Part shown: positions 853 through 26,726 of the stretch, in pieces
Layout: the number at the start of each line of letters is the position of its first letter
Position numbering within the stretch: the first letter of the stretch is position 1
Virus record (IMG/VR): IMGVR_UViG_3300035670_000181
Location: 1 to 64,000 of that record
Reading direction: 5' to 3' (one strand)
Origin: a virus
Length of the DNA stretch: 64,000 nt
Made by a program: the position numbers and the translations under genes
The notes under the pieces: generated by a model
Databases searched by the model: none
What the model saw: the letters and a program-made list of their open reading frames with translations, nothing else
Told to the model about the DNA's origin: nothing

Positions 853-1047
853 ATGATTAATTATGAACACGGAATGCTAGTATTAAACTCTGCTCTCAAC
901 AAACAGGACCAGGAAGCGATCAATCAGTTTCTTGCAGCATCTATTAAAAATGAGCGTGAGCGTATCTATCAAGAAATTACGAAAAAGTCTGATGGTGGAC
1001 ACGTTACAATTGCATTGTTTAATCTAGAAGAAATTATTAAACTCTAG
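853..1047 (+). CDS. Small ERERI-family protein, copy 1
   Basis: A 64-residue protein sharing a core with the product of 7579-7812: a helix ending in ERERIY, a loop with a Gly, then an aromatic/Leu-rich segment (ALFNLEEIIKL here, SLYNLRKIIYND there). A looser relative lies at 10396-10611. The three look like dispersed paralogs of a short helical phage protein. Function unknown. Its 3' end overlaps the convergent gene at 1037 by 11 nt. Confidence 0.65.
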   Translation: MINYEHGMLVLNSALNKQDQEAINQFLAASIKNERERIYQEITKKSDGGHVTIALFNLEEIIKL

Positions 1048-1225
1048 AAAACGTTGGATATCCGATACCGCAATTTTTGCAATAAAATTTTGGTGCCCAG
1101 CTATATTTTTCGCTTGACTCATTTCCAACCACAAGCTTTCCTGCAGCCACTAAGTCATTAATGGCAGGCGATGGACAGCCATAATATATACGTGCCATTT
1201 CATTTTTACATTTTTTACATATCAC
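1037..1225 (-). CDS. Zinc-ribbon protein, 62 aa
   Basis: Two CxxC pairs (C3/C6 and C49/C52), plus C17 in a GCPSP turn, indicate a small zinc-binding ribbon of unknown role. The start is GTG at 1225, chosen because TATAAT lies exactly 6 nt upstream and no ATG fits. It could bind nucleic acid or a protein partner. The family is not recognised. Confidence 0.65.
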   Translation of the reverse strand: MICKKCKNEMARIYYGCPSPAINDLVAAGKLVVGNESSEKYSWAPKFYCKNCGIGYPTFSRV

Positions 1226-1231
1226 ATAATA

Positions 1232-1237
1232 ATTATA
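1232..1237 (-). promoter_or_regulatory. -10 hexamer TATAAT, leaderless GTG start of 1225
   Basis: TATAAT plus 6 nt (TATTAT) leads straight into GTG at 1225, so the leaderless arrangement here uses a GTG start. Confidence 0.6.
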
Positions 1238-1822
1238 TTATGGTTTTGGTAATGAAAGCTCTTTATCTCCAGTAATCCAAAATAACATTGAGTATCTATC
1301 TTCTGCAATTCTCGAAACTTCATGCAAATATTCATTACCGTGAGATGGAAAAGTTATAAGATCTCCAGCTGATGGCTTTATTGTGTGATGAAGCAGTGGG
1401 AAGAAAAGCTCTCCGCCGTCTTCATTTGAATTAAGATAAATAATTACACTATATTTGAAATGCTTATTGATGTCTGGATGTGCATCATGATGGGCTTTGA
1501 CAAAAGCACCGTTCTGCTGCTTGGCTAGCCAGAATGTTGCAGGGTAAATTTCAGAGTCATCGCCAAAAACTTCTTTTAATTTTTCTGGCACTAGGTTAAA
1601 ATATTTATGAACTAAATCATTAATATCTTCAAGTCCATGAACATATGTATCAGAGCTATCCCACCATACCTGGTCACGACCAAATCTTAGAGCGTACCTA
1701 TTGTAGTTTTCTTGCATCGCATAAACATGAAATCTATCTAGATTATTATCTATAAATCTTATAAGCCTATCTCTATCTTCTTGCGAAATAAAGTCTGGTA
1801 TTAGCTTAATGTTTTCTTTCAT
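1238..1822 (-). CDS. 2OG-Fe(II) oxygenase, prolyl-4-hydroxylase-like (1)
   Basis: A 194-residue protein with the double-stranded beta-helix signature. Iron ligands are H111-x-D113 and H167, with R176 in the 2-oxoglutarate position (DRYSMLFW). The DGGELFF and AGDLITFPS strands are typical of the P4Hc superfamily. The start at 1822 is chosen over a longer frame reaching 1945 because TATAAT lies 6 nt upstream and the extension would overlap the divergent gene at 1864. Such enzymes hydroxylate protein or small-molecule substrates; the substrate here is unknown. One of eight related genes in the window. Confidence 0.85.
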   Translation of the reverse strand: MKENIKLIPDFISQEDRDRLIRFIDNNLDRFHVYAMQENYNRYALRFGRDQVWWDSSDTYVHGLEDINDLVHKYFNLVPEKLKEVFGDDSEIYPATFWLAKQQNGAFVKAHHDAHPDINKHFKYSVIIYLNSNEDGGELFFPLLHHTIKPSAGDLITFPSHGNEYLHEVSRIAEDRYSMLFWITGDKELSLPKP

Positions 1823-1828
1823 GAGACT

Positions 1829-1834
1829 ATTATA
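1829..1834 (-). promoter_or_regulatory. -10 hexamer TATAAT, leaderless start of 1238-1822
   Basis: TATAAT plus 6 nt (AGTCTC) precedes ATG at 1822. It faces the plus-strand hexamer at 1852-1857, forming a 41-bp divergent promoter. Confidence 0.65.
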
Positions 1835-1851
1835 CCAGATTCCTACTATGA

Positions 1852-1857
1852 TAAAAT
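1852..1857 (+). promoter_or_regulatory. -10 hexamer TAAAAT, leaderless start of 1864
   Basis: TAAAAT plus 6 nt (ATATAC) precedes ATG at 1864 with no Shine-Dalgarno sequence. Confidence 0.55.
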
Positions 1858-1863
1858 ATATAC

Positions 1864-2568
1864 ATGTCAGAAGGTCTAGAGCAGCTAAAGCCATTCTTAG
1901 AAGAGCTGCACCTGATAGAACGAAACGATACTCATAAAATATCATATTTTGAAAAGGATTCTGACGATGTAATTATATCATTCTCCAGTACCCCAAGAAT
2001 TGGTGATGTTGAAGGTCATGAACAGTTTATAGGGACACTAAGTCAAAATAATAAAACATCAATCTTTATTATTGATTTAAAAAATAGTTATGGAAATAGT
2101 TTAGACTGGGACAGAGTTGCATCACTAATATTGCCAATCATAAAGGGGAGAAGGGTACATGCAATCGGATACTGTATGGGTGGATTTCTGGCAACGGTAT
2201 TATCAAAATATATAAATATAGATGTTGTAGTATCCATTACTCCACAATATAGTATTCACCCAGACTTAATGCCAGCTTATAGCTTTTTGAGAATTTGGTC
2301 AGATCAAATCAAAGAATGGAAAATAAAGTCTTTAGATGACTATTTTTCTAGCACCACAAAATATTACATCCTCAGTAGTGAAGATAGGGATGACGTAGAT
2401 CAAATGGCGATGTATCCAGAATTACCAAACATTAAACAATTTATATTTCCAGGCACAGGACACGACTTACCAGCAGTGCTTGATGATAACCTTGGTATGC
2501 TAATTTTGTCTTGTATAAATGATAAGCCAGAAATTGTTGAAAACTTTATTCAATCACAAATTATATAA
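1864..2568 (+). CDS. Alpha/beta hydrolase with Cys nucleophile elbow
   Basis: The 234-residue product has the nucleophile elbow G-Y-C-M-G-G at 102-107, with cysteine (C104) where esterases have serine, as in dienelactone hydrolases and PHA synthases. A late G-T-G-H (H200) fits the catalytic histidine, and the ED..DD stretch around 173-178 could supply the acid. No signal peptide, so probably cytoplasmic. It is the only mid-sized plus-strand enzyme gene here and overlaps the convergent glycosyltransferase by 15 nt at its 3' end. Substrate unknown. Confidence 0.7.
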   Translation: MSEGLEQLKPFLEELHLIERNDTHKISYFEKDSDDVIISFSSTPRIGDVEGHEQFIGTLSQNNKTSIFIIDLKNSYGNSLDWDRVASLILPIIKGRRVHAIGYCMGGFLATVLSKYINIDVVVSITPQYSIHPDLMPAYSFLRIWSDQIKEWKIKSLDDYFSSTTKYYILSSEDRDDVDQMAMYPELPNIKQFIFPGTGHDLPAVLDDNLGMLILSCINDKPEIVENFIQSQII

Positions 2569-3498
2569 TTCTTTATCAGCCAATGCTTTCATTTGCCAAT
2601 AAAAATCTTTTTGGTCATTGGCTGCCCAATAGTCTTCTGGAGATCTAACAGCATTTTTGACTGCATATTTTGAGTAATCATTATATATAAAAGCCATTGC
2701 AAAGTCACGCATTGTATTTTGATTATCTATAAATTTTGGAACTGTATATATGTCTTTAAACTTTTCATTGCTCCATACAGCATCATAGTATTCTTCTGGC
2801 TTATGCGTTATCATATCTACGTTTACCTGATAGATATTCCATCCAGCAAGAAATGACCTGAAAGATAAATATCCTTCCTCATGAATTCCATGGGTATACG
2901 GATCAAAGCCAACTTCTCTAATAAATCTGCCAGGCATTACTACGGCACCAGATCTCCAAGTAGTGGTGTATTCTAATTCTTCAAAATCTGTTTTAACATT
3001 ATTTACTGGACGCATTGATACATGGTAGGTAGAGTTTTGATTCATACCCTGAGAATTTAGTTGTTCAAAATGAAATTTTTGATCATTAACGGCAATTTTG
3101 TCAGTGTCTGGAATTCTCATTGGAGACTGAACTAGCAAGACATTGTTTTTGCTTCCAAACTTATCTTCAACCTGTTGCATATAGGCATATATTTTTGTAT
3201 CCCAATCTTTTACAAATTCCATATGAGAGTCTATCATTAAAAAGTATTGCTGAAATCCATATAGCTGACTAAGAAGATACCTTATCTTAATAAGCCCTGG
3301 CCTTTCTTCTGGATGCCAATTCAGCGTTATATACTTGCTTTCTGGTAAAAAGCTTAGATCTGGAATCTCGTCTTCGTAATATTGCAAACCAAGTCCAAAG
3401 TATATTGATTCTGGCCACCTAGCATTATCAAGTGCAGACTTTATTGTTTTAATTAATGTTGGGTCTCTATACGATGCAATAGATATAAAAATACTCAT
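2554..3498 (-). CDS. Glycosyltransferase, Skp1-GlcNAc-transferase-like (GT60-like)
   Basis: A 314-residue GT-A protein. It opens with IFISIASYRDP, and the nucleotide-sugar/metal motif is I-D-S-H at 89-92 followed by ME and later WD, the arrangement of the GlcNAc transferase family (PF11397) that includes Skp1 hydroxyproline GlcNAc-transferase. Later regions EEGYLSFR and WNIYQV match the acceptor half of such enzymes. It lies 3 nt downstream of a prolyl-hydroxylase-like gene in the same operon, so modification of a hydroxylated protein is a plausible role (inference). Donor and acceptor are not shown by the sequence. Confidence 0.75.
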   Translation of the reverse strand: MSIFISIASYRDPTLIKTIKSALDNARWPESIYFGLGLQYYEDEIPDLSFLPESKYITLNWHPEERPGLIKIRYLLSQLYGFQQYFLMIDSHMEFVKDWDTKIYAYMQQVEDKFGSKNNVLLVQSPMRIPDTDKIAVNDQKFHFEQLNSQGMNQNSTYHVSMRPVNNVKTDFEELEYTTTWRSGAVVMPGRFIREVGFDPYTHGIHEEGYLSFRSFLAGWNIYQVNVDMITHKPEEYYDAVWSNEKFKDIYTVPKFIDNQNTMRDFAMAFIYNDYSKYAVKNAVRSPEDYWAANDQKDFYWQMKALADKELYNL

Positions 3499-3501
3499 TG
3501 A

Positions 3502-4149
3502 CTAATTACTTTCAAAAAACAATATGTCAGATGGGTTATGATCTGTTGGTGCCTGCTCAGCTGGAACGTCATCCTCTATATCAAAAGTAAACCAAGCTGG
3601 CATTGTATACCTTGTTCCATTATTAAAAGTAGAGATAGAATGTTTGTATCTGCTTGGAAACAATAGTAAGTCACCTACTCCTGGTTTTATTGATAGATCA
3701 AATTCTGGAAACTCAATTTCTCCACCATCAAACTTATCACTTAGATAAACTATTGATGTTATGTTGTATTTATAAAATCCGCCTGCAATAGCTGGCTTGC
3801 CACTTGGTGTCTCTGAATCACTATGAAGTGGCATAGCACTTCCAAGCAACATGTCCCACTTTGTGAAATGAACAGGGATTATTGGATTGCTGTTAATAGA
3901 TATCCCATACCTATCAACATAATTACGATTAATTTCTTCAAGAATCATTCTTTGATACATGTTCATTATTTCTATTACATATGTATTATCAATTTCATCT
4001 TGATATATGTTGCCAGATTTATCAAATGATGACAGATAGTCTGTTAGCCTATTTGCATCTGACTCCATCATAAATGATTTTATTTGAGTTATACCGCTTT
4101 GTGAGTAACCAATTTTATTGTACTCATTCATGAAAACTTCATATCCCAT
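3502..4149 (-). CDS. 2OG-Fe(II) oxygenase, prolyl-4-hydroxylase-like (2)
   Basis: A 215-residue P4Hc-type oxygenase. Ligands are H109-x-D111 and H170, with R180 in the 2OG site (GTRYTMPAWF). The FDGGEIEFPE and GDLLLFPS strands fit the fold. The start at 4149 rather than the in-frame ATG at residue 7 is decided by a TATAAT 6 nt upstream. First gene of a two-gene operon with the GT60-like glycosyltransferase 3 nt downstream, which suggests the two act on the same substrate. Confidence 0.85.
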   Translation of the reverse strand: MGYEVFMNEYNKIGYSQSGITQIKSFMMESDANRLTDYLSSFDKSGNIYQDEIDNTYVIEIMNMYQRMILEEINRNYVDRYGISINSNPIIPVHFTKWDMLLGSAMPLHSDSETPSGKPAIAGGFYKYNITSIVYLSDKFDGGEIEFPEFDLSIKPGVGDLLLFPSRYKHSISTFNNGTRYTMPAWFTFDIEDDVPAEQAPTDHNPSDILFFESN

Positions 4150-4155
4150 GAATAT

Positions 4156-4161
4156 ATTATA
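4156..4161 (-). promoter_or_regulatory. -10 hexamer TATAAT, leaderless start of 4149
   Basis: TATAAT plus 6 nt (ATATTC) precedes ATG at 4149. This promoter drives the oxygenase-glycosyltransferase pair. Confidence 0.65.
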
Positions 4162-4163
4162 CC

Positions 4164-4511
4164 CTACTCAGCCAACCACTCAATTAGATCTGGATTGTCT
4201 TGAATGATTACTAAAAAAGCGTTCTCAAATATACTAATAAAGTGATGCTCCCACTTTTCATATTCAGATTTTTTGTTGGGTATTGTTGTTCCTTCAAAAA
4301 TCATCCTTGCTGCATGAAGTATTTCATGAACAACAGTGACCTTTTGTTTGCTATCGCTAATATCACTAGCAACTACTATTAGATTTCCTTGATCTAACGT
4401 ATATCCATAATTATTATCATTTAGCATACCGTCTTCTTTTGGATTGCGATATTCAATGGTAAATACCTGTGGGCCAATCTTTACCTCACCTGGCTTCTTT
4501 ATAACTGGCAT
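4164..4511 (-). CDS. Predicted HExxH zinc metallopeptidase, 115 aa
   Basis: The H-E-I-L-H motif at residues 62-66 sits in a predicted helix, followed by AARMIFEG and a conserved-looking EKWEHHF at 85-91 that may supply the third zinc ligand. The layout resembles small phage metallopeptidases of the SprT/ImmA kind, but the family is not certain. Start at 4511 is preceded by GGAG 7 nt upstream; a longer frame overlaps ThyX and is less likely. Last gene of the ThyX operon; cytoplasmic, substrate unknown. Confidence 0.65.
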   Translation of the reverse strand: MPVIKKPGEVKIGPQVFTIEYRNPKEDGMLNDNNYGYTLDQGNLIVVASDISDSKQKVTVVHEILHAARMIFEGTTIPNKKSEYEKWEHHFISIFENAFLVIIQDNPDLIEWLAE

Positions 4512-4519
4512 ATAGTCTC

Positions 4520-5239
4520 CTATTCTTCCTGATATAGTGTAGCAAATGTTTCTGGGAATGCCTTGTGTGCCAAATCCTTGACTGCTAGAGCATATTGCTG
4601 AATCTCCCATTGGGCATCATGCTCAAGTCTTTGGTCAAGAAATGTTAGCACACCCTGGAGGGATACGGTCCAACGCCAACGTACGTACATGCCATAGGCA
4701 GGTAGAAATAGACGTGCTATTTCTGGTGCAATGCCATCCTCAAGGGCTTGGTGATAGTTGTCAACACCAAGAACAATTGCCTCACAAAGCCTACTAAAAT
4801 GCTTTTCTCCAAGCTTCTCGTCTATTGGATCTCCAGATCCCTGCTTGCTGTTCTCAGGCTTGGATCGCCACTCATGGGGCAATGGGACATAAAACTTCTC
4901 TTCCTCAGTAACATATCTACGTGATGACTCATTCCAACCGTTTTGCTCATCCACATGAGTAGATGCCACCGCATACTTCCACCATTGTCGTGCTACAAAA
5001 AGTGGGGCATAAACCTCAAAAGTAAGTGCAGCATGTCTAAAAGGACTAGTATGCTGTTCACGGATAAGAAAGTTTATTAGCTTTGCATCTTTGACAGAGA
5101 ACTCAGTAGACTCTTTATCATAGGAAACTCTGGCTGCATTAACAATACTAAGATCATCTCCTAATGTGTCTACAAGACGAACATAGCCCTCATCCAAAAC
5201 GCTGATTGGCTCTGGAAAGCTTTTAATTATAGTTGTCAT
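4520..5239 (-). CDS. thyX: Flavin-dependent thymidylate synthase ThyX
   Basis: A 239-residue ThyX homolog making dTMP from dUMP with FAD and methylene-tetrahydrofolate. It has the N-terminal NAARVSYDK, the HTSPFRHA substrate region (63-70) and NESSRRY at 103-109. The usual RHRxxS signature is changed: R84-Q-W-W-K-Y-A-V-A-S93 followed by an insertion (THVDEQNGW) before NESSRRY, a divergence I associate with some phage ThyX proteins. The start follows an AAAGGATG-type Shine-Dalgarno sequence and overlaps the epimerase stop. Works with the phage RNR to supply DNA precursors. Confidence 0.9.
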   Translation of the reverse strand: MTTIIKSFPEPISVLDEGYVRLVDTLGDDLSIVNAARVSYDKESTEFSVKDAKLINFLIREQHTSPFRHAALTFEVYAPLFVARQWWKYAVASTHVDEQNGWNESSRRYVTEEEKFYVPLPHEWRSKPENSKQGSGDPIDEKLGEKHFSRLCEAIVLGVDNYHQALEDGIAPEIARLFLPAYGMYVRWRWTVSLQGVLTFLDQRLEHDAQWEIQQYALAVKDLAHKAFPETFATLYQEE

Positions 5240-6174
5240 TCTGACATCCTTTCATAAGCTAAAATATCTTTAATTATTTTAATTAGATCAAAACGTGGCT
5301 CCCAGCCAAGTGATACTAATTTGGTAACATCTGGAACTCTTCTTGAAATTTCTGTGTATCCAGGATAAGCAGAGTCGTATGAAACATACTCTATCTCTGA
5401 CTTAGAGCCTGCATACTTTATAACAGTCTTTGCTAATTCATTGATTGAAACTTCTTCTGGATTACCAATGTTATAGACTTCGCCATAATTGCCGTGATCT
5501 ATGACTGTTAAAATTCCAGAAATGGCATCTTCGATGTGGCAGAATGATCTAGTTTGGTTTCCATTACCATAAACAGGTATTGGAGAGTTGTCTCTTGCTG
5601 CAGAAACAAACCTAGGAATTACCATGCCGTACTTGCCAGTCTGTCCTGGTCCTGCTACGTTAAATAGTCTACCAATCTTTACCTTAAGGCCAAACTTTTT
5701 ATTTAGTAGAATTAAAGATCTTTCGCTAATTGCTTTTGATTCAGCATATCCCCATCTTTGATCCCATGTAGCACCAATTACTCTGTTTGCATCTTCAGCC
5801 AATGGAACCAAAGTATTTAGTCCATAAATCTCAGAAGTTGATGCAAAAAATAATTCCTTATTGTGCTTTAGACATAGCTCAGCTATTTTTTTTGTTCCCT
5901 CAGTATTCTGATATAAAGACTCGTATGGATAGTCAAAACCATTCTTCATACCAACGATTGCTGCCAGGTGAATAACCCTATCAGAAGACTCTACAACTCT
6001 ATCTAGCATGTCATATGTTGCAATATCTGCCTCTATGAAGGTATGATCAAAACCATTCTTTCGTGAGCTAGTTGACAAATTATCAATAATTGTTACAGTA
6101 TGCCCTATGCGATAAAGGTGTTTTGCTAGGCTATAGCCAATAAATCCATATCCACCAGTAATAAGATATTTCAT
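5236..6174 (-). CDS. NAD-dependent nucleotide-sugar epimerase/dehydratase (SDR)
   Basis: An extended short-chain dehydrogenase of 312 aa. The NAD-binding G-G-Y-G-F-I-G is at 7-13, the acidic D31 binds the ribose, and the catalytic Y143-A-E-S-K147 follows a TSEIYG serine region. It acts on an NDP-sugar (UDP-glucose 4-epimerase, UDP-glucuronate decarboxylase or relative); the exact reaction cannot be read from sequence. Its stop overlaps the thyX start and its start overlaps the stop of the sugar dehydrogenase, so the two sugar enzymes are co-expressed. Confidence 0.85.
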   Translation of the reverse strand: MKYLITGGYGFIGYSLAKHLYRIGHTVTIIDNLSTSSRKNGFDHTFIEADIATYDMLDRVVESSDRVIHLAAIVGMKNGFDYPYESLYQNTEGTKKIAELCLKHNKELFFASTSEIYGLNTLVPLAEDANRVIGATWDQRWGYAESKAISERSLILLNKKFGLKVKIGRLFNVAGPGQTGKYGMVIPRFVSAARDNSPIPVYGNGNQTRSFCHIEDAISGILTVIDHGNYGEVYNIGNPEEVSINELAKTVIKYAGSKSEIEYVSYDSAYPGYTEISRRVPDVTKLVSLGWEPRFDLIKIIKDILAYERMSE

Positions 6175-7295
6175 TAAATTCTCTCACAGTCAATGACCTG
6201 CATATTATTTAGAATTGATGTATCAAAACCATCATGCCTATGTACAACAATTACCAAATCTGTTTTAGAATCAATGTTTTGTGATTCAGTGTTCCTGTAT
6301 TTTTTAACCACATCATCGTGCCAGTAAGTATTTGCACCAAGACTATTCAATCTATTTAATAGCTCCAGGCCCTGAGAGTTTGTAGTATACTCAACATTTG
6401 GCTTATATGAAATTCCAACAATACAAATTTTTTTATTGTTTACTGTGCCCAGCCTATTTATCGCTAATGATATAAAATAATTAATTGCCTTATCATTTAC
6501 CGACAAGGCCTTGTCTATCATTCCTGCCTCAATACCCAGCTCAGCTGTAGATTCCAGTATAAAGGTTGGATCTACAGGAATGCAGTCACCGCCTGCACCT
6601 AGACCAGGCCTAAATGAACTAAATCCAAAAGGCTTTGTGTCTGCTAATGAAATAACACTGTTAACATTAATGCCAAGCTTATCAAGGATCATAGCATATT
6701 CATTAATAAAAGATATATTTATTAGCCTGTACGCATTTTCTAAAAGCTTTGCAGCCTCAGCATCTTCAACCGATCCAGATAGAACAACCTCATCAATAAA
6801 GGTTTTATAAAAATCTTCTGCTCTATCTCTTGCCAGCTCTGTTATTCCAGAAACTATTTTTGGTGTGTTGGATATATTCCAGCTATGGCCCCCAACATTT
6901 ATTCTCTCTGGAGAATATGCAAGTTCAAAATATTTACTGCTTTCTTCTAAAACCCTATGAAGTCTGCGTGTTGTTCCAATTGGCACCGTAGACTCTATGA
7001 TGACTAATGCACCATCTTTAATGTTTTTAGATATTGACTTAATTGCATTAAAAACATAGGCTGAGCTTGGCAATCCTGGCTTTGCTACTACGGTTGGCAC
7101 ACATACAACCAAAATATCTGATGACTTAATATCTGAATAATCAGATGAGACTGGATAGTCTACGGTATCAGACAGGCTTTGCACTAGTGCTTGATTAACA
7201 TCAATACCAATTACAGAATGCTTTTCAGACCTAGCTATCGCATCTGATAAAGATCTTCCAACAATGCCCTGACCAATAACCGCTACCTTAGACAC
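6174..7295 (-). CDS. UDP-sugar 6-dehydrogenase (UDP-Glc/GDP-Man DH family)
   Basis: A 373-residue NAD-dependent dehydrogenase oxidising the C6 hydroxyl of a nucleotide sugar to the uronate. The N-terminal Rossmann motif G-Q-G-I-V-G is at 8-13, and the catalytic cysteine C238 lies in GAGGDCIPVDP. YSPERINVG and the C-terminal KICIVGISYKPN domain are also typical. It is slightly shorter than the usual ~420 aa. Coupled to the downstream epimerase, giving a two-step UDP-hexuronic-acid type pathway (inference). The substrate could be UDP-Glc, UDP-GlcNAc or UDP-ManNAc. Confidence 0.85.
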   Translation of the reverse strand: MSKVAVIGQGIVGRSLSDAIARSEKHSVIGIDVNQALVQSLSDTVDYPVSSDYSDIKSSDILVVCVPTVVAKPGLPSSAYVFNAIKSISKNIKDGALVIIESTVPIGTTRRLHRVLEESSKYFELAYSPERINVGGHSWNISNTPKIVSGITELARDRAEDFYKTFIDEVVLSGSVEDAEAAKLLENAYRLINISFINEYAMILDKLGINVNSVISLADTKPFGFSSFRPGLGAGGDCIPVDPTFILESTAELGIEAGMIDKALSVNDKAINYFISLAINRLGTVNNKKICIVGISYKPNVEYTTNSQGLELLNRLNSLGANTYWHDDVVKKYRNTESQNIDSKTDLVIVVHRHDGFDTSILNNMQVIDCERI

Positions 7296-7298
7296 TAC

Positions 7299-7586
7299 CT
7301 ACCCCAAAACTGCTAGAATGTCTCTATATGGCAAGATTAGATATGACTTGCCGTTTTCTGAATACTCAGTGCCACTAAACTTTGCAAATGCTACCTTATC
7401 GCCAACGCTAACGTCTGGAACCATTAAAACACCATTATCTAGTTGAAGACCTGGCCCAACTGCCACAACAATTGCCTCACTAGGCTTTTCATCAGAAAGG
7501 CCTGGAATGATAAATCCAGAAGAAGTTGTTTTCTCTTCCTCTTTAATTACCTCTACAACGACCTTATCATAAAGTGGTTTAATCAT
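7299..7586 (-). CDS. groES: GroES-like co-chaperonin
   Basis: A 95-residue Cpn10. It has the N-terminal IKPLYDKVVVEVI, the mobile loop around TSSGFIIPG (residues 21-29) and the GDKVAFAKFSGTEY and LPYRDILAVLG strands. No GroEL is present in the window, so it presumably works with the host chaperonin, as T4 gp31 does. It overlaps the upstream gene by 8 nt and sits 3 nt before the sugar dehydrogenase. Confidence 0.9.
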   Translation of the reverse strand: MIKPLYDKVVVEVIKEEEKTTSSGFIIPGLSDEKPSEAIVVAVGPGLQLDNGVLMVPDVSVGDKVAFAKFSGTEYSENGKSYLILPYRDILAVLG

Positions 7587-7812
7587 TATAAATAATCTTT
7601 CTTAGATTGTATAAAGAGATATACATGTTTTCATATCCCTTAGCATTATTTGTAAGTGTATTATAAATACGCTCTCGCTCTTTTTCTTGACCAGCTCTGA
7701 AGGCCTGTGCTACAAATTCCATATCTTCAGGGCTACTAGGTGTTGCTAGGCCAACTGAATACTCAAACTGTCCCAAGTCTCTCAATTCATAGTCTATGTC
7801 TGGAATGCTCAT
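7579..7812 (-). CDS. Small ERERI-family protein, copy 2
   Basis: A 77-residue acidic-to-neutral protein with a helix ending in EKERERIYN, then SLYNLRKIIYND, closely resembling the gene at 853-1047. First gene of a long operon, leaderless by promoter geometry, running through groES, sugar enzymes, thyX and the metallopeptidase. Function unknown. Confidence 0.7.
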   Translation of the reverse strand: MSIPDIDYELRDLGQFEYSVGLATPSSPEDMEFVAQAFRAGQEKERERIYNTLTNNAKGYENMYISLYNLRKIIYND

Positions 7813-7818
7813 TTATAC

Positions 7819-7824
7819 ATTTTA
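7819..7824 (-). promoter_or_regulatory. -10 hexamer TAAAAT, leaderless start of 7812
   Basis: TAAAAT plus 6 nt (GTATAA) precedes ATG at 7812. It appears to head the operon down to about 4164. Confidence 0.55.
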
Positions 7825-7843
7825 CACTAAAATGCAAAATATG

Positions 7844-8065
7844 TCAAGCAGCAAGTAGATTAATTTTATCTGGCTGGAATCCAGCCCAGTTGCCAGCCTC
7901 AGAGATTACAACAGGTGCTGACTGAAACCCCATCCCCAGGATCATTTGCAGTGCTTGCTCATCCTGAGTAATATCAACGGTGTCATACTTAACCCCAATT
8001 TTGTCCATATATCTTTTAGTCATGTCGCACTGGACACACGATGGCTTTGTATAAACCGTAGTCAT
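7844..8065 (-). CDS. nrdH: NrdH-type glutaredoxin
   Basis: A 73-residue redoxin with the C10-V-Q-C13 active site after MTTVYTKPS, and the APVV and GNWAGFQPDK segments typical of NrdH, the electron donor for class Ib ribonucleotide reductase. The start at 8065 is set by an AAGGAG Shine-Dalgarno sequence; an upstream in-frame ATG at 8122 lies before the promoter and is rejected. The nrdIEF genes it should serve are about 26 kb away, an unusual separation. Confidence 0.9.
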   Translation of the reverse strand: MTTVYTKPSCVQCDMTKRYMDKIGVKYDTVDITQDEQALQMILGMGFQSAPVVISEAGNWAGFQPDKINLLAA

Positions 8066-8093
8066 TTGTTGCTCCTTTTCAATTAGTGTATCT

Positions 8094-8099
8094 ATTATA
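8094..8099 (-). promoter_or_regulatory. -10 hexamer TATAAT of nrdH
   Basis: TATAAT followed by a short leader of about 20 nt containing AAGGAG before ATG 8065. An example of a leadered promoter, contrasting with the leaderless ones. Confidence 0.6.
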
Positions 8100-8124
8100 C
8101 CGATTTGTTTTGGCTTTATCAAGC

Positions 8125-9780
8125 CTAATTATTACGTTTTGGTAACAGGACAACCTTGCCCTTCTCTGGAATGTATAAAAATCTTATTCCACTTTCCGTA
8201 CAAGTCCTAATAGCATCCTCAAAACTATTTACTAAGGTATCTCCTGCTAAATTAAATGATGTATTTAGTATCATTGGAATACCTGTTTTATGATAAAAAG
8301 ATTCTATCAATCTATAGTAGTTTTCGTTATCAGACAAAGACACTGTTTGTATTCTGGAAGTACCATCATTATGCTGAAGTGCAGGTACAAGATCACGCTT
8401 ATCTAGCTTTGCCTCTACTGCGTACATCATATGAGGACTTGACACTAAGCTAGCCATATCAAACCAAGCATGTGCATGCTCTTCTAATACGCTTCCAGCA
8501 AATGGTCTAAAGTATTCTCTTTTCTTAATTGTATTAACAACATCTCTACCATTTGGATCTCTTGGATCGTATAGGATTGACCTATTACCCAATGCCCTGG
8601 GACCAGATTCCGCTTTTCCTTGATAAATGGCAACAATGTTTCTATTTGCGATTAGCTCTGCTACCATGTCTGGGGTAGCATCATACATTGATAGATCATT
8701 GCTAAAACTATCATAAGAATAGTCTGCACCCTTGCCAAGGTATAGCCTATTGATCGGAGCTATAGACTTGTCCTGTGATAGTTCACGATAAACAAATAAT
8801 GCTGCACCTATTGCGGTTCCAGAATCAGCAGAGTTTGGCTCTACGTAAAACTCAATGTCTGGGAAAGCCTTAAGATACTTATAGTTATTGACACAATTTA
8901 AGAAATACCCCCCACTCAGACATACCTTATTTAATCCTGTGGTCTCTATGGCCCTTTTAATGAGCATTAAGGATGGTTCTAGGCTGTCATGTTGGACTCT
9001 ATAGGCTAAATCCTCATTGCTGATATCTGCCTGTAGAATTTCCTGGTTAGCTATGCCATTAGTGAATGCTCTTGGATGCTCTGGGTTGTCGGTGCCATAG
9101 GCAGACAGCCCCATGACTTTTCCTGCATTATGATAGCTGTTAAAAATCTTGATACCAGTTAAGCTAAACAGCTTTCCAATACTAACATTGCTATCTAGCT
9201 TATTGATTTCATAAGAGGTTGGGACATCTAGATTACATCTAGAAAAATATGTCTTAGATTCCACATCCTGGACAAGCTTTTGATCATATTCAGATACTGT
9301 AAGCTGTCTAATAAGATTTTTATAGATTGGAGTAATTTCACTACGACTTGCAGAAAATATTGTTTCTGTTTCTCTATAGAGATATTCACTATCTATAAAA
9401 GATTGACCTGCACCGTCTACAACGAGTACTGCTGCATTTTCAAAACCAGAATTGTAGAATGCAAGTGCTGCATGAGATAGGTGATGATCCCTAAAATTGT
9501 AGGTGTTATACTTCTTATTGTTTTCAAAATGTTTATATAAGCCAGTAGAAAGCATGAGCGATGAAAAAACAGCATCAGCATCTATCTCGTGTGGAAATGC
9601 TCCAACAAATACAACATGTTCAGGGTCATACAACCTCATAGCCTCTGCAAAGCTATTTATAACTCCAGTCGTATGCTTTGTATGGGTATAGCGTTCTTCT
9701 TCAGCATAATAAATTACTTGACCATTCTCAATAACGCAAACGCTTCCATCGTGTGAAAGATTAACCCCCATCACTCTCAT
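8125..9780 (-). CDS. Carbamoyltransferase, NodU/TobZ family (1)
   Basis: A 551-residue protein with the two-domain layout of O-carbamoyltransferases. The N-terminal Kae1-like domain carries VNLSHDGSV and the metal/carbamoyl-adenylate histidines in DHHLSHAALAF, then VVDGAGQS. The C-terminal YrdC-like region has SGPRALGNRSIL and the DGTSRIQTV and NTSFN motifs. These enzymes use carbamoyl phosphate and ATP to carbamoylate a sugar or antibiotic hydroxyl. The start overlaps the PIG-L deacetylase stop, suggesting both act on the same glycan. Confidence 0.9.
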   Translation of the reverse strand: MRVMGVNLSHDGSVCVIENGQVIYYAEEERYTHTKHTTGVINSFAEAMRLYDPEHVVFVGAFPHEIDADAVFSSLMLSTGLYKHFENNKKYNTYNFRDHHLSHAALAFYNSGFENAAVLVVDGAGQSFIDSEYLYRETETIFSASRSEITPIYKNLIRQLTVSEYDQKLVQDVESKTYFSRCNLDVPTSYEINKLDSNVSIGKLFSLTGIKIFNSYHNAGKVMGLSAYGTDNPEHPRAFTNGIANQEILQADISNEDLAYRVQHDSLEPSLMLIKRAIETTGLNKVCLSGGYFLNCVNNYKYLKAFPDIEFYVEPNSADSGTAIGAALFVYRELSQDKSIAPINRLYLGKGADYSYDSFSNDLSMYDATPDMVAELIANRNIVAIYQGKAESGPRALGNRSILYDPRDPNGRDVVNTIKKREYFRPFAGSVLEEHAHAWFDMASLVSSPHMMYAVEAKLDKRDLVPALQHNDGTSRIQTVSLSDNENYYRLIESFYHKTGIPMILNTSFNLAGDTLVNSFEDAIRTCTESGIRFLYIPEKGKVVLLPKRNN

Positions 9781-10364
9781 CAGTAAAGCACCATACTATC
9801 TACGCTAAATACCTCAGCTGCCGTTGTGTTTATAAATCCACCCCTCCAGGAATCGTGGGATGCAACTTGCTCTGCCCACTCTGAAACATTTGAGTACTCC
9901 GCTATTGCATCATACTTTTGAAAAGCAAAATCGGTTATGTCAACATATAAGTTAGGATTAAAGTTTTTATATTTAAGATTGTATGGATATGAATTCATGT
10001 GCCATACATCTACTGGCTGGTTTCTTCTTATTATTGATACAATTTCGTTGCAGGCTCTATGATCTTGATGCCAGTCCTCTTCCCAGTGAGTAATTATTAA
10101 ATCTGGTTTAATTGACTTTACAATCTCATCTATGGAAGATATTGTTTGACTATTTACAGCAAATCTTGGATTTTCTAATGAATATATTAGTGGGGTATAT
10201 CCAAGCACTTTAGAAGCATTATCCAAATACTTTACATGAGGAACATTGCCAACCATAATTAGATTAGTTACTGATGCACCTTGGCTAATCATCTTTGCCA
10301 CAGTACCGCCACATGACAACTCTAGGTCATCTGGGTGTGCTGATACAACTAAAACATTCTTCAT
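9780..10364 (-). CDS. PIG-L/LmbE family N-deacetylase
   Basis: A 194-residue zinc deacetylase of the GlcNAc-PI de-N-acetylase family. The A-H-P-D-D motif is at 9-13 (zinc ligands H10 and D13, base D12), and a second H-W-E-E-D-W-H-Q-D-H segment supplies the third ligand. It removes an acetyl group from an N-acetyl sugar or related compound. First gene of a two-gene operon with the carbamoyltransferase; leaderless by promoter geometry. Confidence 0.85.
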   Translation of the reverse strand: MKNVLVVSAHPDDLELSCGGTVAKMISQGASVTNLIMVGNVPHVKYLDNASKVLGYTPLIYSLENPRFAVNSQTISSIDEIVKSIKPDLIITHWEEDWHQDHRACNEIVSIIRRNQPVDVWHMNSYPYNLKYKNFNPNLYVDITDFAFQKYDAIAEYSNVSEWAEQVASHDSWRGGFINTTAAEVFSVDSMVLY

Positions 10365-10370
10365 AGCTAT

Positions 10371-10376
10371 AGTATA
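10371..10376 (-). promoter_or_regulatory. -10 hexamer TATACT, leaderless start of 10364
   Basis: TATACT plus 6 nt (ATAGCT) precedes ATG at 10364. No Shine-Dalgarno sequence. Confidence 0.55.
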
Positions 10377-10395
10377 TCTAACCGATAGCTAAAAG

Positions 10396-10611
10396 TCAAT
10401 CCTCATCTGCCAATCTTTCATATGCCCAGCCAAGGACAGCTGCTGCAATCTGATCATCTGATAAATCCTTCTCCTGGATTAATAGCCTAAGCCTTTCAAA
10501 TATAGCAATTCTTTCTGCCTGTGCTCCAAGGAAATATAGGTCACTAGCTGATCCAGATATCTTAGTTAGCACTATCTCAGCAACTTGTCTGATTTCTTCC
10601 TTGCTTTCCAT
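10396..10611 (-). CDS. Small helical protein, possible ERERI-family relative
   Basis: A 71-residue acidic, all-helical protein. The central GAQAERIAIFERLRLLI segment resembles the ERERI helix of the genes at 853 and 7579, and its single-gene, leaderless setting is similar. The C-terminus (AAAVLGWAYERLADED) differs. Function unknown. Confidence 0.6.
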   Translation of the reverse strand: MESKEEIRQVAEIVLTKISGSASDLYFLGAQAERIAIFERLRLLIQEKDLSDDQIAAAVLGWAYERLADED

Positions 10612-10617
10612 TTATAC

Positions 10618-10623
10618 ATTATA
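10618..10623 (-). promoter_or_regulatory. -10 hexamer TATAAT, leaderless start of 10611
   Basis: TATAAT plus GTATAA precedes ATG at 10611. The 6-nt spacer is identical to that before 7812, another ERERI-type gene. Confidence 0.6.
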
Positions 10624-10630
10624 TCAGTGT

Positions 10631-10636
10631 TATAAT
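10631..10636 (+). promoter_or_regulatory. -10 hexamer TATAAT of the HNH gene at 10647
   Basis: TATAAT lies 10 nt before ATG 10647, leaving a leader of only a few nucleotides and no Shine-Dalgarno sequence. It is divergent from the promoter at 10618-10623. Confidence 0.5.
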
Positions 10637-10646
10637 TAGTTGTAAT

Positions 10647-10889
10647 ATGTCAAATACAGTTGAATTCCAAAGGTATAAGGAAAAGATGGGCTGTGCTGAC
10701 TGTAAAAAACTTTACCCACATTATGTCTTAGAATTTGATCACAGACCTGGCGTTAAAAAAATAGACGTTGTCACCAGAGTTTTAAAGAAGTATGGCCCTG
10801 AAAAAGCATGGGCAGAAGTTAAAAAATGCGATGTTGTCTGTGCAAACTGTCACAAAATTAGAACATATCAGCGTGAGCATGATGTATAA
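10647..10889 (+). CDS. HNH endonuclease-like protein, 80 aa
   Basis: A compact HNH fold. The zinc cysteines C16/C19 (CADC) and C70/C73 (CANC) flank the catalytic core LEFDHRPG and the terminal CHKIRTYQR. It could be a free-standing homing-type endonuclease or a packaging-associated HNH protein; the small size and plus orientation favour a mobile or accessory role. No intron boundaries are visible nearby. Confidence 0.8.
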   Translation: MSNTVEFQRYKEKMGCADCKKLYPHYVLEFDHRPGVKKIDVVTRVLKKYGPEKAWAEVKKCDVVCANCHKIRTYQREHDV

Positions 10890-10910: not shown

Positions 10911-11483
10911 ATGATAATTATTGATGACTCTTTTATTTCTGAAGACTACGTGGCTATGACTCAAGAAGCTATTCTCTCTGACACTAGACCAATTTTTTGG
11001 ACTTTGAATCAACAGACCAACGTTCCAGATGAAGAAAGTGTTTACGCTGTTCCAGATAAAAATACGCAGAGTGCCGTTCAATTTGTATCTCATGTAGACA
11101 AAAATCATCCACTTTATAATGGAATATTTGGAATATTTAATTCATTTGTGAAAAAGCATGGTATTGATTTTGCAGAAATTGTGAGAATTAAAATAAACCT
11201 AATTCAGCCTGGACCAAATCCAGATGCTAGCAAATATCATATGCCTCATGTTGACTCAGATTCTGAACACAAAGTTTTTATATATTACGTAAATGATAGT
11301 GACGGAGACACTATATTTTTTAATCAGGTTGCAGACGGACATAAGCCTGAAAAGTTTACTGTTATGAATAGAGTTTCCCCAAAGCGTGGACGTGGAGTAG
11401 TCTTTGATGGATCAATATATCATGCATCGTCTTCACCAATTGAGAATCAGTATAGATGTATAATTAATATTGATTTTGTTTAA
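10911..11483 (+). CDS. 2OG-Fe(II) oxygenase-like protein (3)
   Basis: The 190-residue product carries H113-x-D115 (MPHVDSD), a distal H171 (SIYHASS) and R182 (YRCIINIDF), spaced as in the 2OG-Fe(II) cupin fold. The NDSDGDTIFFN and GRGVVFDG strands fit. It belongs to a different branch from the P4Hc copies, with a hydrophobic strand after the arginine. It is the only oxygenase on the plus strand, without a glycosyltransferase neighbour. Substrate unknown. Confidence 0.75.
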   Translation: MIIIDDSFISEDYVAMTQEAILSDTRPIFWTLNQQTNVPDEESVYAVPDKNTQSAVQFVSHVDKNHPLYNGIFGIFNSFVKKHGIDFAEIVRIKINLIQPGPNPDASKYHMPHVDSDSEHKVFIYYVNDSDGDTIFFNQVADGHKPEKFTVMNRVSPKRGRGVVFDGSIYHASSSPIENQYRCIINIDFV

Positions 11484-13917: not shown

Positions 13918-14544
13918 CTACCAGGTCCAGCCAAGATCAGACTGTCTTTTTATTACTGCGTCCCTAAAGTCTGCGTAGCTATTTGATAGCTTTATAAGGA
14001 AATCTCTATCTATCATGCTATACTTCAAAACAATTTCTTCGTATCTTTCATGATTTTTAGAGCTATTGGCAACTATTTTATATTTATCATTAGCATCTTG
14101 TAAGAATATTTTTTTTACAATAGCTTCTGCATTTTTATTTACAACATTAATACCTAGGCTACTAGCTAAATTCTCTATAGTTTTTTCCAGGTTGTCTGAT
14201 AGCTGCTCAAATAGTATCGGATAAATTGTGTCAACACTCTTTGATGCTGCAGCATAAAAATCTATATACTGCTTGGCGTTATTCTCAAATAGATACGGCT
14301 TTATTTCAAGACCTTGCATTATTGTTCCAAGTATAATTGCAGAAGGAATACAGTCTTTTGGATCTCTTAAAATAGTTATTACTGGAATGTCTGACCTAAG
14401 CAAAAGTTCTATTTCGTGATCATTATATCCGTCTTGATAAAATTTTTCTAGGTCATACCCAGTTAATCCCTGTGAATATCCAATAACTCTTCTTAAAAAG
14501 TGTGTGCCAGATCGTGGAAACGCCACAACGCATGGGTTTATCAT
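13918..14544 (-). CDS. Sulfotransferase-like protein
   Basis: A 208-residue protein whose N-terminal FPRSGTHFLRRV (residues 9-20) is the 5'-phosphosulfate-binding loop of PAPS-dependent sulfotransferases. VITILRDPKDC at about 70-80 matches the 3'-phosphate-binding segment. The start at 14544 is set by AGGAG 5 nt upstream. It would transfer sulfate from PAPS to a glycan, lipid or protein hydroxyl; an APS kinase domain at 18133-18891 could help supply PAPS. Acceptor unknown. Confidence 0.75.
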   Translation of the reverse strand: MINPCVVAFPRSGTHFLRRVIGYSQGLTGYDLEKFYQDGYNDHEIELLLRSDIPVITILRDPKDCIPSAIILGTIMQGLEIKPYLFENNAKQYIDFYAAASKSVDTIYPILFEQLSDNLEKTIENLASSLGINVVNKNAEAIVKKIFLQDANDKYKIVANSSKNHERYEEIVLKYSMIDRDFLIKLSNSYADFRDAVIKRQSDLGWTW

Positions 14545-14566
14545 ATATCTCCTAAAAACAAAAAAT

Positions 14567-14590
14567 GGGCTATATATAATTATACAGCCC
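14567..14590 (-). terminator. Intrinsic terminator with TATAAT in the hairpin
   Basis: On the minus strand GGGCT/AGCCC, extended by TATA/TATA across one mismatch, forms a hairpin followed by ATTTTTT. It lies directly after the stop of 14608-14982. The upper stem and loop contain TATAAT, which could serve as the -10 of the sulfotransferase gene. Confidence 0.7.
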
Positions 14591-14607
14591 ACTTAATGCT
14601 ATTTAGT

Positions 14608-17934: not shown

Positions 17935-18136
17935 ATCTTCTTCCCCATTTTACAAAATTCCATCCACGTTCATGAAAATAATAAAGTACTGTTTTTGTTA
18001 AAACTTCTAGCGATGCAATTGATGCAGCAGCAACTGGCTCTTTAGTAATTAACCAGGATATTAAGAATGTGTCTGCTGTCCCAATAATTCTCCACGAGAT
18101 GGCCTTAGCAGCAGACCTAGACCTTGTTACATTCAT
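17921..18136 (-). CDS. DUF2061 membrane protein
   Basis: A 71-residue protein matching the DUF2061 pattern: SRSAAKAISWRIIGTADTFL, SWLIT, then EVLTKTVLYYFHERGW. Two short hydrophobic helices suggest an integral membrane protein. Its ATG overlaps the stop of the kinase gene (ATGA). In bacteria such genes often neighbour sulfate-activation genes, which fits the APS-kinase fusion directly upstream. Function unknown. Confidence 0.85.
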   Translation of the reverse strand: MNVTRSRSAAKAISWRIIGTADTFLISWLITKEPVAAASIASLEVLTKTVLYYFHERGWNFVKWGRRYEQR

Positions 18137-24501: not shown

Positions 24502-25104
24502 TTATTCCTTTCTTGTATTTGGATGGTTTCTTGCAGCCCAGAATGCGGTTTCTTCTACTGTGTGAAAGTCAGGATCCGCATGCTCTGGAAGGCTTGTGTG
24601 CATATAGAGTGCGGTATGCCTGTGCCCAGCAGTCACTGTTGTTATTCCATGAATGTATTCTGACCCAGCACTTGGGAAAAATACAGCAGAATACTTTTTA
24701 GGCTTATACTCAAAATCTTGATTGGGAAAATAAATTATTCCACCCTCATAGTCTTCTGGATCATTTAAATATATAATTGTGCTCCACTCAATAAATGGCT
24801 CTGGGTCCTGTGCATCAATATGAAGCCCACCAACCGATCCAGATTGCCAATGTGATCCGAATGCCTTAAAAACATATATTGGATTTACAAATCCATTAAG
24901 GTTTTTATGTACATCATTAGACTTATGTCCATACTTAATTAACAAATCCATAACCACTTTGTTATACGGAAATGCTGTTCCACCAAAACGATCCTTGTAA
25001 TATTCTGGATATGGATTAACCTCTGATGGATTTAATTGCTCATTGATTAAAATCTGAGCATCTTCTGGTGCAATAAAGTTATCTATGATGTGGATTCTAT
25101 GCAT
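24502..25104 (-). CDS. 2OG-Fe(II) oxygenase, prolyl-4-hydroxylase-like (5)
   Basis: A 200-residue P4Hc-type oxygenase: H95-x-D97 (GLHIDAQD), H152 (YIHGITT) and R162 (HRHTALYMH). YEGGIIYFPNQ and AVFFPSAGS strands are present. Start follows ATTAGGAG. It lies 9 nt downstream of a GT60-like glycosyltransferase, the second such oxygenase-glycosyltransferase neighbourhood in the window. Confidence 0.85.
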   Translation of the reverse strand: MHRIHIIDNFIAPEDAQILINEQLNPSEVNPYPEYYKDRFGGTAFPYNKVVMDLLIKYGHKSNDVHKNLNGFVNPIYVFKAFGSHWQSGSVGGLHIDAQDPEPFIEWSTIIYLNDPEDYEGGIIYFPNQDFEYKPKKYSAVFFPSAGSEYIHGITTVTAGHRHTALYMHTSLPEHADPDFHTVEETAFWAARNHPNTRKE

Positions 25105-25113
25105 TATGTTCTC

Positions 25114-25977
25114 CTAATAAATTGCCTTGGTTGAAGCCAAGAATCGTTCTCCACCAATATCTACAAACTTTAACGTATTTGGATCATACAATACATCATC
25201 GTTTTGATATGGTATAGGCTTTAGATCATTCTTTTTGAGTCCATGAAACTCTAAAAAGTCTGACAGTTTTCTTTCTTTACCCTGGTAATAGCTATACCTA
25301 TTATAGCTTATTTCATTTATCAAATTTATGAAATCATTATATTTATGCTCTAGGGAAAATGGGGCATATAAGTTCTCCAGGGTCCTATTCTTTAAGTCAG
25401 TATATAGGTCGCTTGGTGCTGAATATATATCAATATTATTACAAAAACACTCAATGCTAAGAAGCTCAGACTCTCCAAAATACTTAGTCTGAATAGGATA
25501 CTGAATTGAAGAAAATGTTTCTTTAGACCCAAACATAAAATTATTGTCAATTATTTGACTCAGTATAAAGTTATTAGCCTCATACCTGTCTACTGTCAAA
25601 AAATATTTGTCTTTTTTTCTATATCTTGAAGTACCTTGACCAGAAACTATAATATTTTTATCAGCAACAAAATCCATCAGCCTGGTATCCCATCCAGGGG
25701 TAAAAATTATGTCATCTGTGACCATCATACGATAGCCATCTGGACCATTATAAATAGATTCATGCCTATAGCTTGCAGGACCATACTGATGATCCCAAAA
25801 AATATTATAGTAATCTATTGCCTTGGCCTTTATCTTATCCTCTCTTGTTAGAGGATTTTGATCTTTTACTACTACATATGGAACACTGTCAGCAGTGTCA
25901 ACCATATTTTTTACCATTTCTGGCAAATTCTTTCCTTTATAAGAGTAAACTAATACTGATATCATTCTGGCTGTCAT
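25114..25977 (-). CDS. GT-A glycosyltransferase-like protein, 287 aa
   Basis: Opens with ISVLVYSYKGKNLPEM, and has a central MVTDDIIFTPGWD in which TDD replaces the DSH of the first glycosyltransferase while the trailing W-D is kept. This fits a GT-A nucleotide-sugar site in the GT60/GlcNAc-transferase neighbourhood, but similarity is partial. It sits just upstream of a P4Hc oxygenase. Acceptor and sugar unknown. Confidence 0.55.
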   Translation of the reverse strand: MTARMISVLVYSYKGKNLPEMVKNMVDTADSVPYVVVKDQNPLTREDKIKAKAIDYYNIFWDHQYGPASYRHESIYNGPDGYRMMVTDDIIFTPGWDTRLMDFVADKNIIVSGQGTSRYRKKDKYFLTVDRYEANNFILSQIIDNNFMFGSKETFSSIQYPIQTKYFGESELLSIECFCNNIDIYSAPSDLYTDLKNRTLENLYAPFSLEHKYNDFINLINEISYNRYSYYQGKERKLSDFLEFHGLKKNDLKPIPYQNDDVLYDPNTLKFVDIGGERFLASTKAIY

Positions 25978-26726
25978 TTTTTATTCTTTGACTCCCCACG
26001 AAATATTTTTCTTCTCCACGCAAACCACTTATAGTATCCATGAATTTTTGTTCTGCGACGTTCTGCTGCAAAATCATGTCTCTCAACTTCTTCAGGAGTC
26101 TCTATCACCTGCATTCCCCAAGAGTCTCGCTTAAAGGGAATCATTTGAAAAATTGGAGTTCCTTTTGGAATAACTCCACGAAAATTTCTATTTAAAAAGA
26201 ATGCAACGAATACTGGCAGTCCCCAAATATCTGACTCAATAATTCCAGACTGAACTATAAAAGGCAAGTCATATCTATTCATTGGGTGTGTAACCAATAC
26301 AGAGTACCCTGGTGGAGTTTCATAATACCAATTCATTTTAAAACCATAATGTATTGGGTGACAATTATTTGGAACTGGTAGCTCTATTGTGGGGCGTTGA
26401 TCAACAATCATGAAATCGCCCTTCCACCAAAGAATTGGCTTGCCATCATCATCTATGTCAACATGAAGATCATCTTCTAGAGTAAACATATATCCTGCTG
26501 TCATAGCATCTAGAAATGGAGGGCACTGCTTTGTTGCTACAACTGCACCATCAGTACCTATATAGTTAACTGGATGCAGGGTCTTTTCGCTATTAGATAG
26601 GTTATGCTTAGCAAGACTTTTATACCACTCTGGAACATGGATACTTGCAGGTGTTGGTGCCGTTAGCCTACCACCATGGTCTGGCATAGTGGGAACAAAG
26701 CTAATCTTTAAAAGATCATCTTCCAA
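25974..26726 (-). CDS. Unknown protein, paralog of 26727-27461
   Basis: A 250-residue protein with HVPEWYKSL, FLDAMTAGYMF, ETPPGYSVLVTHPMNR and GVIPKGTPIFQMIPFKRDSW, all aligned with the next gene. I place both in a widespread phage family (DUF6065-like in appearance) of unknown function. The start is TTG at 26726, directly after the paralog's stop, which aligns the two N-termini. No catalytic motif is evident. Confidence 0.6.
   Translation of the reverse strand: MEDDLLKISFVPTMPDHGGRLTAPTPASIHVPEWYKSLAKHNLSNSEKTLHPVNYIGTDGAVVATKQCPPFLDAMTAGYMFTLEDDLHVDIDDDGKPILWWKGDFMIVDQRPTIELPVPNNCHPIHYGFKMNWYYETPPGYSVLVTHPMNRYDLPFIVQSGIIESDIWGLPVFVAFFLNRNFRGVIPKGTPIFQMIPFKRDSWGMQVIETPEEVERHDFAAERRRTKIHGYYKWFAWRRKIFRGESKNKK

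Follow-up and report, generated by a model that had tools for sequence, protein, structure and literature searches.

The glycosyltransferase family GT60 of CAZy holds both Gnt1, the N-acetylglucosamine (GlcNAc) transferase of Skp1, which needs hydroxyproline, and a polypeptide GlcNAc-transferase of Trypanosoma cruzi (PMC6939170). Among viruses, Mimivirus L230 is a lysyl hydroxylase-glucosyltransferase (PMC9546862), and the use of prolyl hydroxylases by viruses was termed 'cryptic' in one survey (PMC9301287). The locus described here is a pair of minus-strand genes from IMG/VR virus record IMGVR_UViG_3300035670_000181. The window, meaning the whole stretch of DNA that was analyzed, covers 64,000 of the 66,333 bases of this record. 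The first gene of the pair encodes a P4Hc-type 2-oxoglutarate (2OG)-Fe(II) oxygenase and the second a GT60-type glycosyltransferase (GT). An earlier note on this DNA, made from its letters alone, likened the two products to PhyA and Gnt1 of Dictyostelium. The pair is read here, with a probability of about one half, as the phage form of a recurring prokaryotic module that hydroxylates and then glycosylates a protein.

The GT passed the curated cut-off of Pfam PF11397 'Glycosyltransferase (GlcNAc)', which we take to be CAZy GT60 (E-value [E] 2.2e-24; 87.1 bits against a cut-off of 21). It also matched phrog_24687 (glycosyltransferase). The I-D-S-H site pointed out in the earlier note held up: across 36 aligned relatives D90 and H92 were invariant and S91 nearly so, the GT-A D-x-H metal motif was kept, and W99 and D100 were likewise invariant. 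An AlphaFold2 model of the GT had a predicted local distance difference test score (pLDDT) of 82.5 and a predicted template modelling score of 0.84, with residues 128-170 unreliable; polypeptide N-acetylgalactosamine (GalNAc) transferases were the top fold matches to this model (E 2e-10). The sequence profile of the GT matched the same enzymes (E 7e-5), with D-S-H aligned to their D-x-H. A phmmer search of the GT against the PDB gave no match and a single-sequence scan of viral contigs found no relative; a profile scan of viral contigs returned more than 580 matches.

The oxygenase matched PF13640 (E 5.9e-8; 34 bits against a cut-off of 27), in agreement with its earlier assignment as P4Hc-type. 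In the alignment the iron triad H109/D111/H170 and R180, at the 2OG-binding position, lined up. The AlphaFold2 model (pLDDT 88) had as its nearest solved folds Paramecium bursaria chlorella virus-1 (PBCV-1) vCPH, PHD2, Pseudomonas putida PPHD, P3H1, and Dictyostelium PhyA (DdPhyA). A profile of 25 phage P4Hc proteins, which mixes paralogues, recovered P3H1, bacterial prolyl 4-hydroxylase (P4H), and PHD2 (E 7e-17 to 1e-9) before Tet-like enzymes (E 2e-6). Together these matches support a prolyl-hydroxylase-like enzyme and not PhyA specifically. The likeness to PhyA and Gnt1 thus stood in part: the predicted folds are prolyl-hydroxylase-like, with DdPhyA among the matches, and polypeptide-GalNAc-transferase-like, and a particular kinship with PhyA did not emerge. 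The PHROGs labels 'DNA endonuclease V' and 'ferrochelatase', attached to P4Hc proteins, were treated as annotation carry-over.

The Tet-like matches bear on another scheme, DNA-base hypermodification, in which the P4Hc protein would be a TET/JBP-like base oxidase and the GT would glycosylate the hydroxylated base. Some phage clusters for DNA modification also include carbamoyltransferases and GTs, and a weak Tet_JBP match was present (E 0.19; 11 bits against a cut-off of 35). However, prolyl hydroxylases outscored Tet-like enzymes by far, and no C5 cytosine methyltransferase (PF00145) was found in the window's record or in five relatives. Furthermore, the predicted GT fold resembles polypeptide GalNAc-transferases, and ThyX is an ordinary nucleotide enzyme. 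Modification of DNA bases is very improbable and was rejected on the profile ranking and the missing PF00145.

Both open frames are intact and lie 3 nucleotides (nt) apart, as first described (P4Hc stop codon, 3502-3504; GT ATG, 3498-3496). A two-gene unit is plausible because the GT end meets an alpha/beta-hydrolase gene convergently. At the P4Hc start codon stands a TATAAT-N6-ATG pattern. In the window, TATAAT-N6-RTG occurred nine times against 2.8 expected, and nine was reached in 0 of 100 shuffles; this window-wide excess suggests leaderless transcription, and the label 'leaderless' that the earlier note gave to the P4Hc-GT unit is reasonable. Several of the nine sites stand at gene starts.

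Linkage of the two enzyme types was measured across records of the phage clade, in which genes were called mechanically, families were labelled by in-house profiles, and P4Hc labels were shuffled within records (649 genes, 32 P4Hc). A same-strand P4Hc stood directly upstream of 7 of 21 GT genes of the D-S-H type (1.2 expected), at spacings of -20 to +7 nt. For a divergent GT60 relative, here called GTb, a same-strand P4Hc stood directly downstream in seven of seven cases (0.9 expected), among them the window's own genes 25114-25977/24502-25104. Each count was reached in 0 of 5000 shuffles, a significance that is overstated because related contigs are not independent. Two safeguards against contig kinship are the diversity of partner P4Hc subfamilies and the GT60 tree. 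Subfamilies are named here by the start coordinate of their member in the window (Table 1), and relatives by our own L and G numbers. In L129, L130, L131, and L132 the GT orthologue directly follows a P4Hc of the 1238 type, which it overlaps by 8-20 nt or from which 7 nt separate it; the GT60 gene was preceded by the 20530 type in L133 and by the 24502 type in L219. With the 3502 type of the window, there is therefore one slot upstream of GT60, filled by four P4Hc subfamilies.

Such neighbors might also arise by chance if P4Hc, GT, and carbamoyltransferase cargo is gathered in one region where adjacent genes need not cooperate. P4Hc genes are frequent in this clade (32 of the 649 genes above; up to eight matches in one record), the partner P4Hc differs between relatives, and the majority of GT60 genes are unpaired. 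Beyond the pair described in the earlier note, the window contains several other P4Hc genes and another pairing of a P4Hc with a GT60-like gene (24502-25977), so that a P4Hc close by is in itself nothing unusual here. However, label shuffling within contigs left both counts well above expectation (7 against 1.2 and 7 against 0.9), and the order is strict, P4Hc-GT for the D-S-H type and GTb-P4Hc for the other, with frames overlapping or nearly so. The same link also occurs in bacterial chromosomes that carry one to five P4Hc genes per genome. Chance proximity is disfavored and rated unlikely.

To look for the link in bacteria, genomes of bacteria and archaea were scanned with a profile; 113 GT60 relatives were found, of which 80 were kept. 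P4Hc was found at gene offsets of -1, 0, +1, or +2 from GT60 in 17 cases and at offsets of -5 to -2 or +3 to +5 in none. In SAR86 and related gammaproteobacteria the P4Hc-GT60 pair was divergently transcribed, with a partner in SAR86 of the classic prolyl 4-hydroxylase type (E 6e-33 against Chlamydomonas P4H). A Polynucleobacter GT60 gene had a P4Hc neighbor (L254), and in Polaribacter the P4Hc lay two genes from GT60 (L282). Fusions of 605-2452 amino acids (aa) were found mostly in Alphaproteobacteria, and both domains were confirmed by Pfam in the fusions tested. The shortest was a 605-aa GT60-P4Hc protein (L235). In Alphaproteobacteria/Rickettsiales, single proteins of up to 2452 aa combined two to four GT60 domains with a P4Hc domain; L246, L248, L267, L285, and L299 had 1313-2452 aa and two to four GT60 plus P4Hc domain(s), with L267 running off its contig. 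A sub-threshold AhpC/TSA (thioredoxin-like) match was seen in the Pfam scan of L246. In four genomes (G063, G064, G066, and G067) the sole PF13640 match was the one beside or fused to GT60.

A GT60 tree was built from 83 dereplicated rows, without eukaryotic sequences. The paired state needed nine changes on this tree (14.1 in shuffles), and well-supported branches demand six of the nine; pairing was gained or lost on several occasions. Separately, GT60 stood in a conserved gene order in Enterobacterales (L255-L298; Morganella, Ewingella, Erwinia, Tatumella, and others), flanked by genes for proteins of about 626, 350, 375, and 335 aa before it and 210, 545, and 160 aa after it.

Several results weigh against the reading of the pair as a hydroxylate-then-glycosylate module. 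One relative, G050 (= L213; near-copy G049 = L220), is syntenic with window positions 1037-10889. It keeps the 1238-type P4Hc (47%), the GT (40%), the epimerase (51%), the carbamoyltransferase (57%), and PIG-L (48%), as well as the alpha/beta-hydrolase, UGD, ThyX, GroES, glutaredoxin, and the 10911-type P4Hc. G050 is without a 3502-type P4Hc, and its operon order is epimerase-GT-PIG-L-carbamoyltransferase. In L087, which has the nearest 3502 homologue (37%), no GT adjoins it. The exact orthologous 3502/GT pair is not conserved. Separation of the two genes in related genomes, which the earlier note had named as telling against its proposal, was thus found for the exact pair and not for the enzyme types, because G050 is without the 3502 type and L087 without an adjoining GT; the pair of enzyme types recurs in phages, bacteria, and fusions, a wider and stronger link than the earlier note could draw on. 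Moreover, most GT60 genes had no neighboring P4Hc, and few of the 80 viral contigs examined (of more than 580 found) were paired. As a check on bias, 399 genomes were drawn evenly from a single phylum; 27 had GT60, and one of 26 GT60 loci was P4Hc-paired (a fusion), with none adjacent, which lowers the estimate of how common pairing is among bacteria. Pairing is therefore a recurrent but minority condition. Among cultured phages the GT was found only in jumbo Xanthomonas/Stenotrophomonas phages, and the P4Hc-GT pair in none. Fold comparison leaves latitude as well. The matches of both models are moderate, with template modelling scores of 0.5-0.6 that do not fix the substrate; PiuC-type and other PKHD-type hydroxylases also rank high against the P4Hc model, and TarS, a teichoic-acid GlcNAc-transferase, matches the GT model, less well than the GalNAc-transferases.

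The G050 block is also the starting point of the main rival explanation, a decorated-glycan pathway. Here the GT60 enzyme would build a glycan that contains amino sugars and is carried by a lipid, a surface polymer, or a virion protein; PIG-L would de-N-acetylate it, the carbamoyltransferase would carbamoylate it, and UGD and the epimerase would supply sugars; the P4Hc protein would hydroxylate the glycan or act separately. G050 keeps exactly these genes and the alpha/beta-hydrolase without the 3502 P4Hc, the TarS-like fold matches are consistent with such a glycan, and GT60 adjoins a carbamoyltransferase in the phages XacN1 and RAS14 and in L091 and L160, and lies near one in L187/L196. However, this pathway leaves unexplained the recurrent P4Hc adjacency with different subfamilies and the bacterial GT60-P4Hc fusions, which have no carbamoyltransferase. 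The 1238-type P4Hc, moreover, is still in the G050 block. A decorated glycan is possible, with odds of around one in four.

Under the preferred reading, that of a protein-modifying module, the two genes would act in order. What is established comprises the families of both enzymes, their intact catalytic residues and class of fold, the coupling of the two genes, and a recurrence of P4Hc-GT60 beyond chance in phages and bacteria. We infer the rest: serial action of the two enzymes on a single substrate, a protein as this substrate, proline as the modified residue, and GlcNAc as the sugar. A protein side chain, most likely that of proline, would be hydroxylated by the P4Hc enzyme; the hydroxyl group so formed would then receive an N-acetylhexosamine from the GT60-type transferase, in the manner of PhyA and Gnt1 on Skp1. 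The co-inherited PIG-L and carbamoyltransferase may then de-N-acetylate and carbamoylate the sugar, a step proposed from gene context.

A candidate target had been suggested in the earlier note, namely a protein of 769 aa (31145-33454) that looks exported and has an extended Pro-Glu-Thr tract. It has a Pro-rich relative in G057, and the Pro content of the protein at this position differs strongly among relatives. In G052, which has P4Hc-GT60 pairs, the counterpart is Pro-poor (2.4% Pro); the sole Pro-rich candidate target does not track with the pair, a further point against the proposal. The protein was accordingly dropped as the common substrate and is at best one optional target. The Pro-rich proteins of the clade yielded no Gly-X-Y collagen repeats.

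Table 1. Features in the window, with coordinates, strand, and basis of assignment.
Feature	Coordinates	Strand	Basis
P4Hc of the pair (first gene); 2OG-Fe(II) oxygenase of prolyl-hydroxylase-like type	3502..4149	-	PF13640, catalytic residues, AlphaFold2 model
GT of the pair (second gene); GT60-type (PF11397), D-S-H site	2554..3498	-	PF11397, invariant residues, model
TATAAT-N6-ATG, putative leaderless promoter/start of the two-gene unit	4147..4161	-	Pattern count in window
Alpha/beta-hydrolase, convergent with GT; also in the syntenic block of G050	1864..2568	+	Pfam, synteny
Second P4Hc near GT; in L129-L132 an orthologue directly precedes the GT60 gene	1238..1822	-	
NAD-dependent sugar-nucleotide epimerase; G050 orthologue immediately upstream of the GT orthologue	5236..6174	-	
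UDP-glucose/GDP-mannose dehydrogenase (UGD); shared with the G050 block	6174..7295	-	
NodU/CmcH-type carbamoyltransferase; follows PIG-L in G050	8125..9780	-	
PIG-L (GlcNAc de-N-acetylase-type); in G050 immediately downstream of the GT orthologue	9780..10364	-	PF02585 E 7.9e-17
Further P4Hc	10911..11483	+	
Further P4Hc, overlapping the end of carbamoyltransferase 21192-22604; subfamily of the upstream partner of the GT60 gene in L133	20530..21228	-	
Divergent GT60 relative GTb, upstream partner in the second P4Hc pair	25114..25977	-	Profile-profile match
P4Hc of the second pair	24502..25104	-	Identity of full-length orthologues: 71-87% for most relatives, 50% for L160 and G052

GTb, the upstream gene of the second pair, had no Pfam match. 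It aligned to GT60 in a profile-profile comparison (98.4%, E 5e-15) and is without the full D-x-H. The second pair lies in a conserved phage module (20530-28122), orthologues of which occur in most relatives examined: three DUF6065-like/other genes, GTb, the 24502 P4Hc, two GCSITFGD-motif genes, the 21192 carbamoyltransferase, and the 20530 P4Hc. The GCSITFGD-motif genes, which had no Pfam match, were read by eye as SGNH-hydrolase-like. DUF6065-like proteins (25974-27461; weak, E 0.007 for one) lie near the P4Hc/GTb module in relatives, and a protein of similar appearance stands directly upstream of the GT60 gene in L090. Three other genes (29878-30645, 42982-43563, and 43564-44361) were 2OG-oxygenase/cupin-like by eye, with no Pfam match, and the 29878 type occurs as three tandem copies in G052 (L216). 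At 18133-18891 an APS-kinase/P-loop domain is fused to a weak cytidylyltransferase-like domain; with a sulfotransferase-like gene at 13918-14592, this fusion hints at sulfation.

With the terminases of Streptomyces phages (Gilson, Coruscant, and NootNoot, among others) the window terminase shared 55-56% identity, and terminases 79-91% identical to it were found in at least 80 viral contigs. These matches place the phage in a large uncultured, actinophage-like group. It would be a freshwater-type phage, and its host probably an aquatic actinobacterium.

Prolyl hydroxylases are abundant yet among the least understood cargo genes of aquatic phages, and the recurrent link to a putative polypeptide-type GlcNAc-transferase gives phage P4Hc genes a testable role. 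No paper describing a P4Hc-GT60 link in prokaryotes was found, in a partial coverage of the literature. If the reading as a protein-modifying module is true, hydroxyproline-linked glycosylation, known from eukaryotes, extends to bacteria and phages, and the finding bears on the origin of the Skp1 oxygen-sensing pathway. Hydroxylation of a protein with glycosylation after it is a feature of amoebae and Toxoplasma and may have old prokaryotic roots. A broader and tentative proposal, held to be rather less likely than the module itself, is that P4Hc and GT60 form a modular, horizontally mobile hydroxyproline-linked glycosylation system of prokaryotes and phages, with megasynthase-like fusions in Alphaproteobacteria. 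The PhyA/Gnt1 pathway would then be its late descendant, and phages, adding de-N-acetylation and carbamoylation, would decorate virion or host proteins with it.

Known systems resemble the pair to different degrees. The GTs of Xanthomonas phage XacN1 (ORF334) and Stenotrophomonas phage RAS14 (phrog_24687) are PF11397-type, about 25% identical, and next to a carbamoyltransferase, but have 457-478 aa and no P4Hc neighbor and belong to jumbo phages. The PBCV-1 P4H, vCPH, is a viral P4Hc and the best fold match to the window P4Hc, but comes from a virus of a eukaryotic alga; we know of no GT60 partner for it. Mimivirus L230 shares virus-encoded hydroxylation followed by glycosylation. However, its target is collagen lysine, its domains are fused, and its GT lies outside GT60; in the Pro-rich proteins of the window's relatives no collagen-type repeats were found. 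The bacterial systems (SAR86, Alphaproteobacteria/Rickettsiales, Polynucleobacter) combine the two Pfam families of the phage pair, as neighboring genes or within a single protein. They differ from it in being chromosomal and in being fused or in another gene order (divergent in SAR86), and the SAR86 P4Hc is of the classic P4H type. With Skp1 PhyA/Gnt1 (Dictyostelium, Toxoplasma) the pair shares the enzyme types, a P4Hc-type putative prolyl hydroxylase and a GT60-type putative GlcNAc-transferase; in the known pathway hydroxylation comes first, and no export signal is evident on either phage enzyme. In contrast, no Skp1 is expected in a bacterial host, DdPhyA ranked 43 by fold and is 20% identical to the phage P4Hc, and the genes here are adjacent or fused, with PIG-L and the carbamoyltransferase co-inherited. 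The phage pair is best classed as a putative system of the hydroxylate-then-glycosylate kind and not as a member of the Skp1 pathway.

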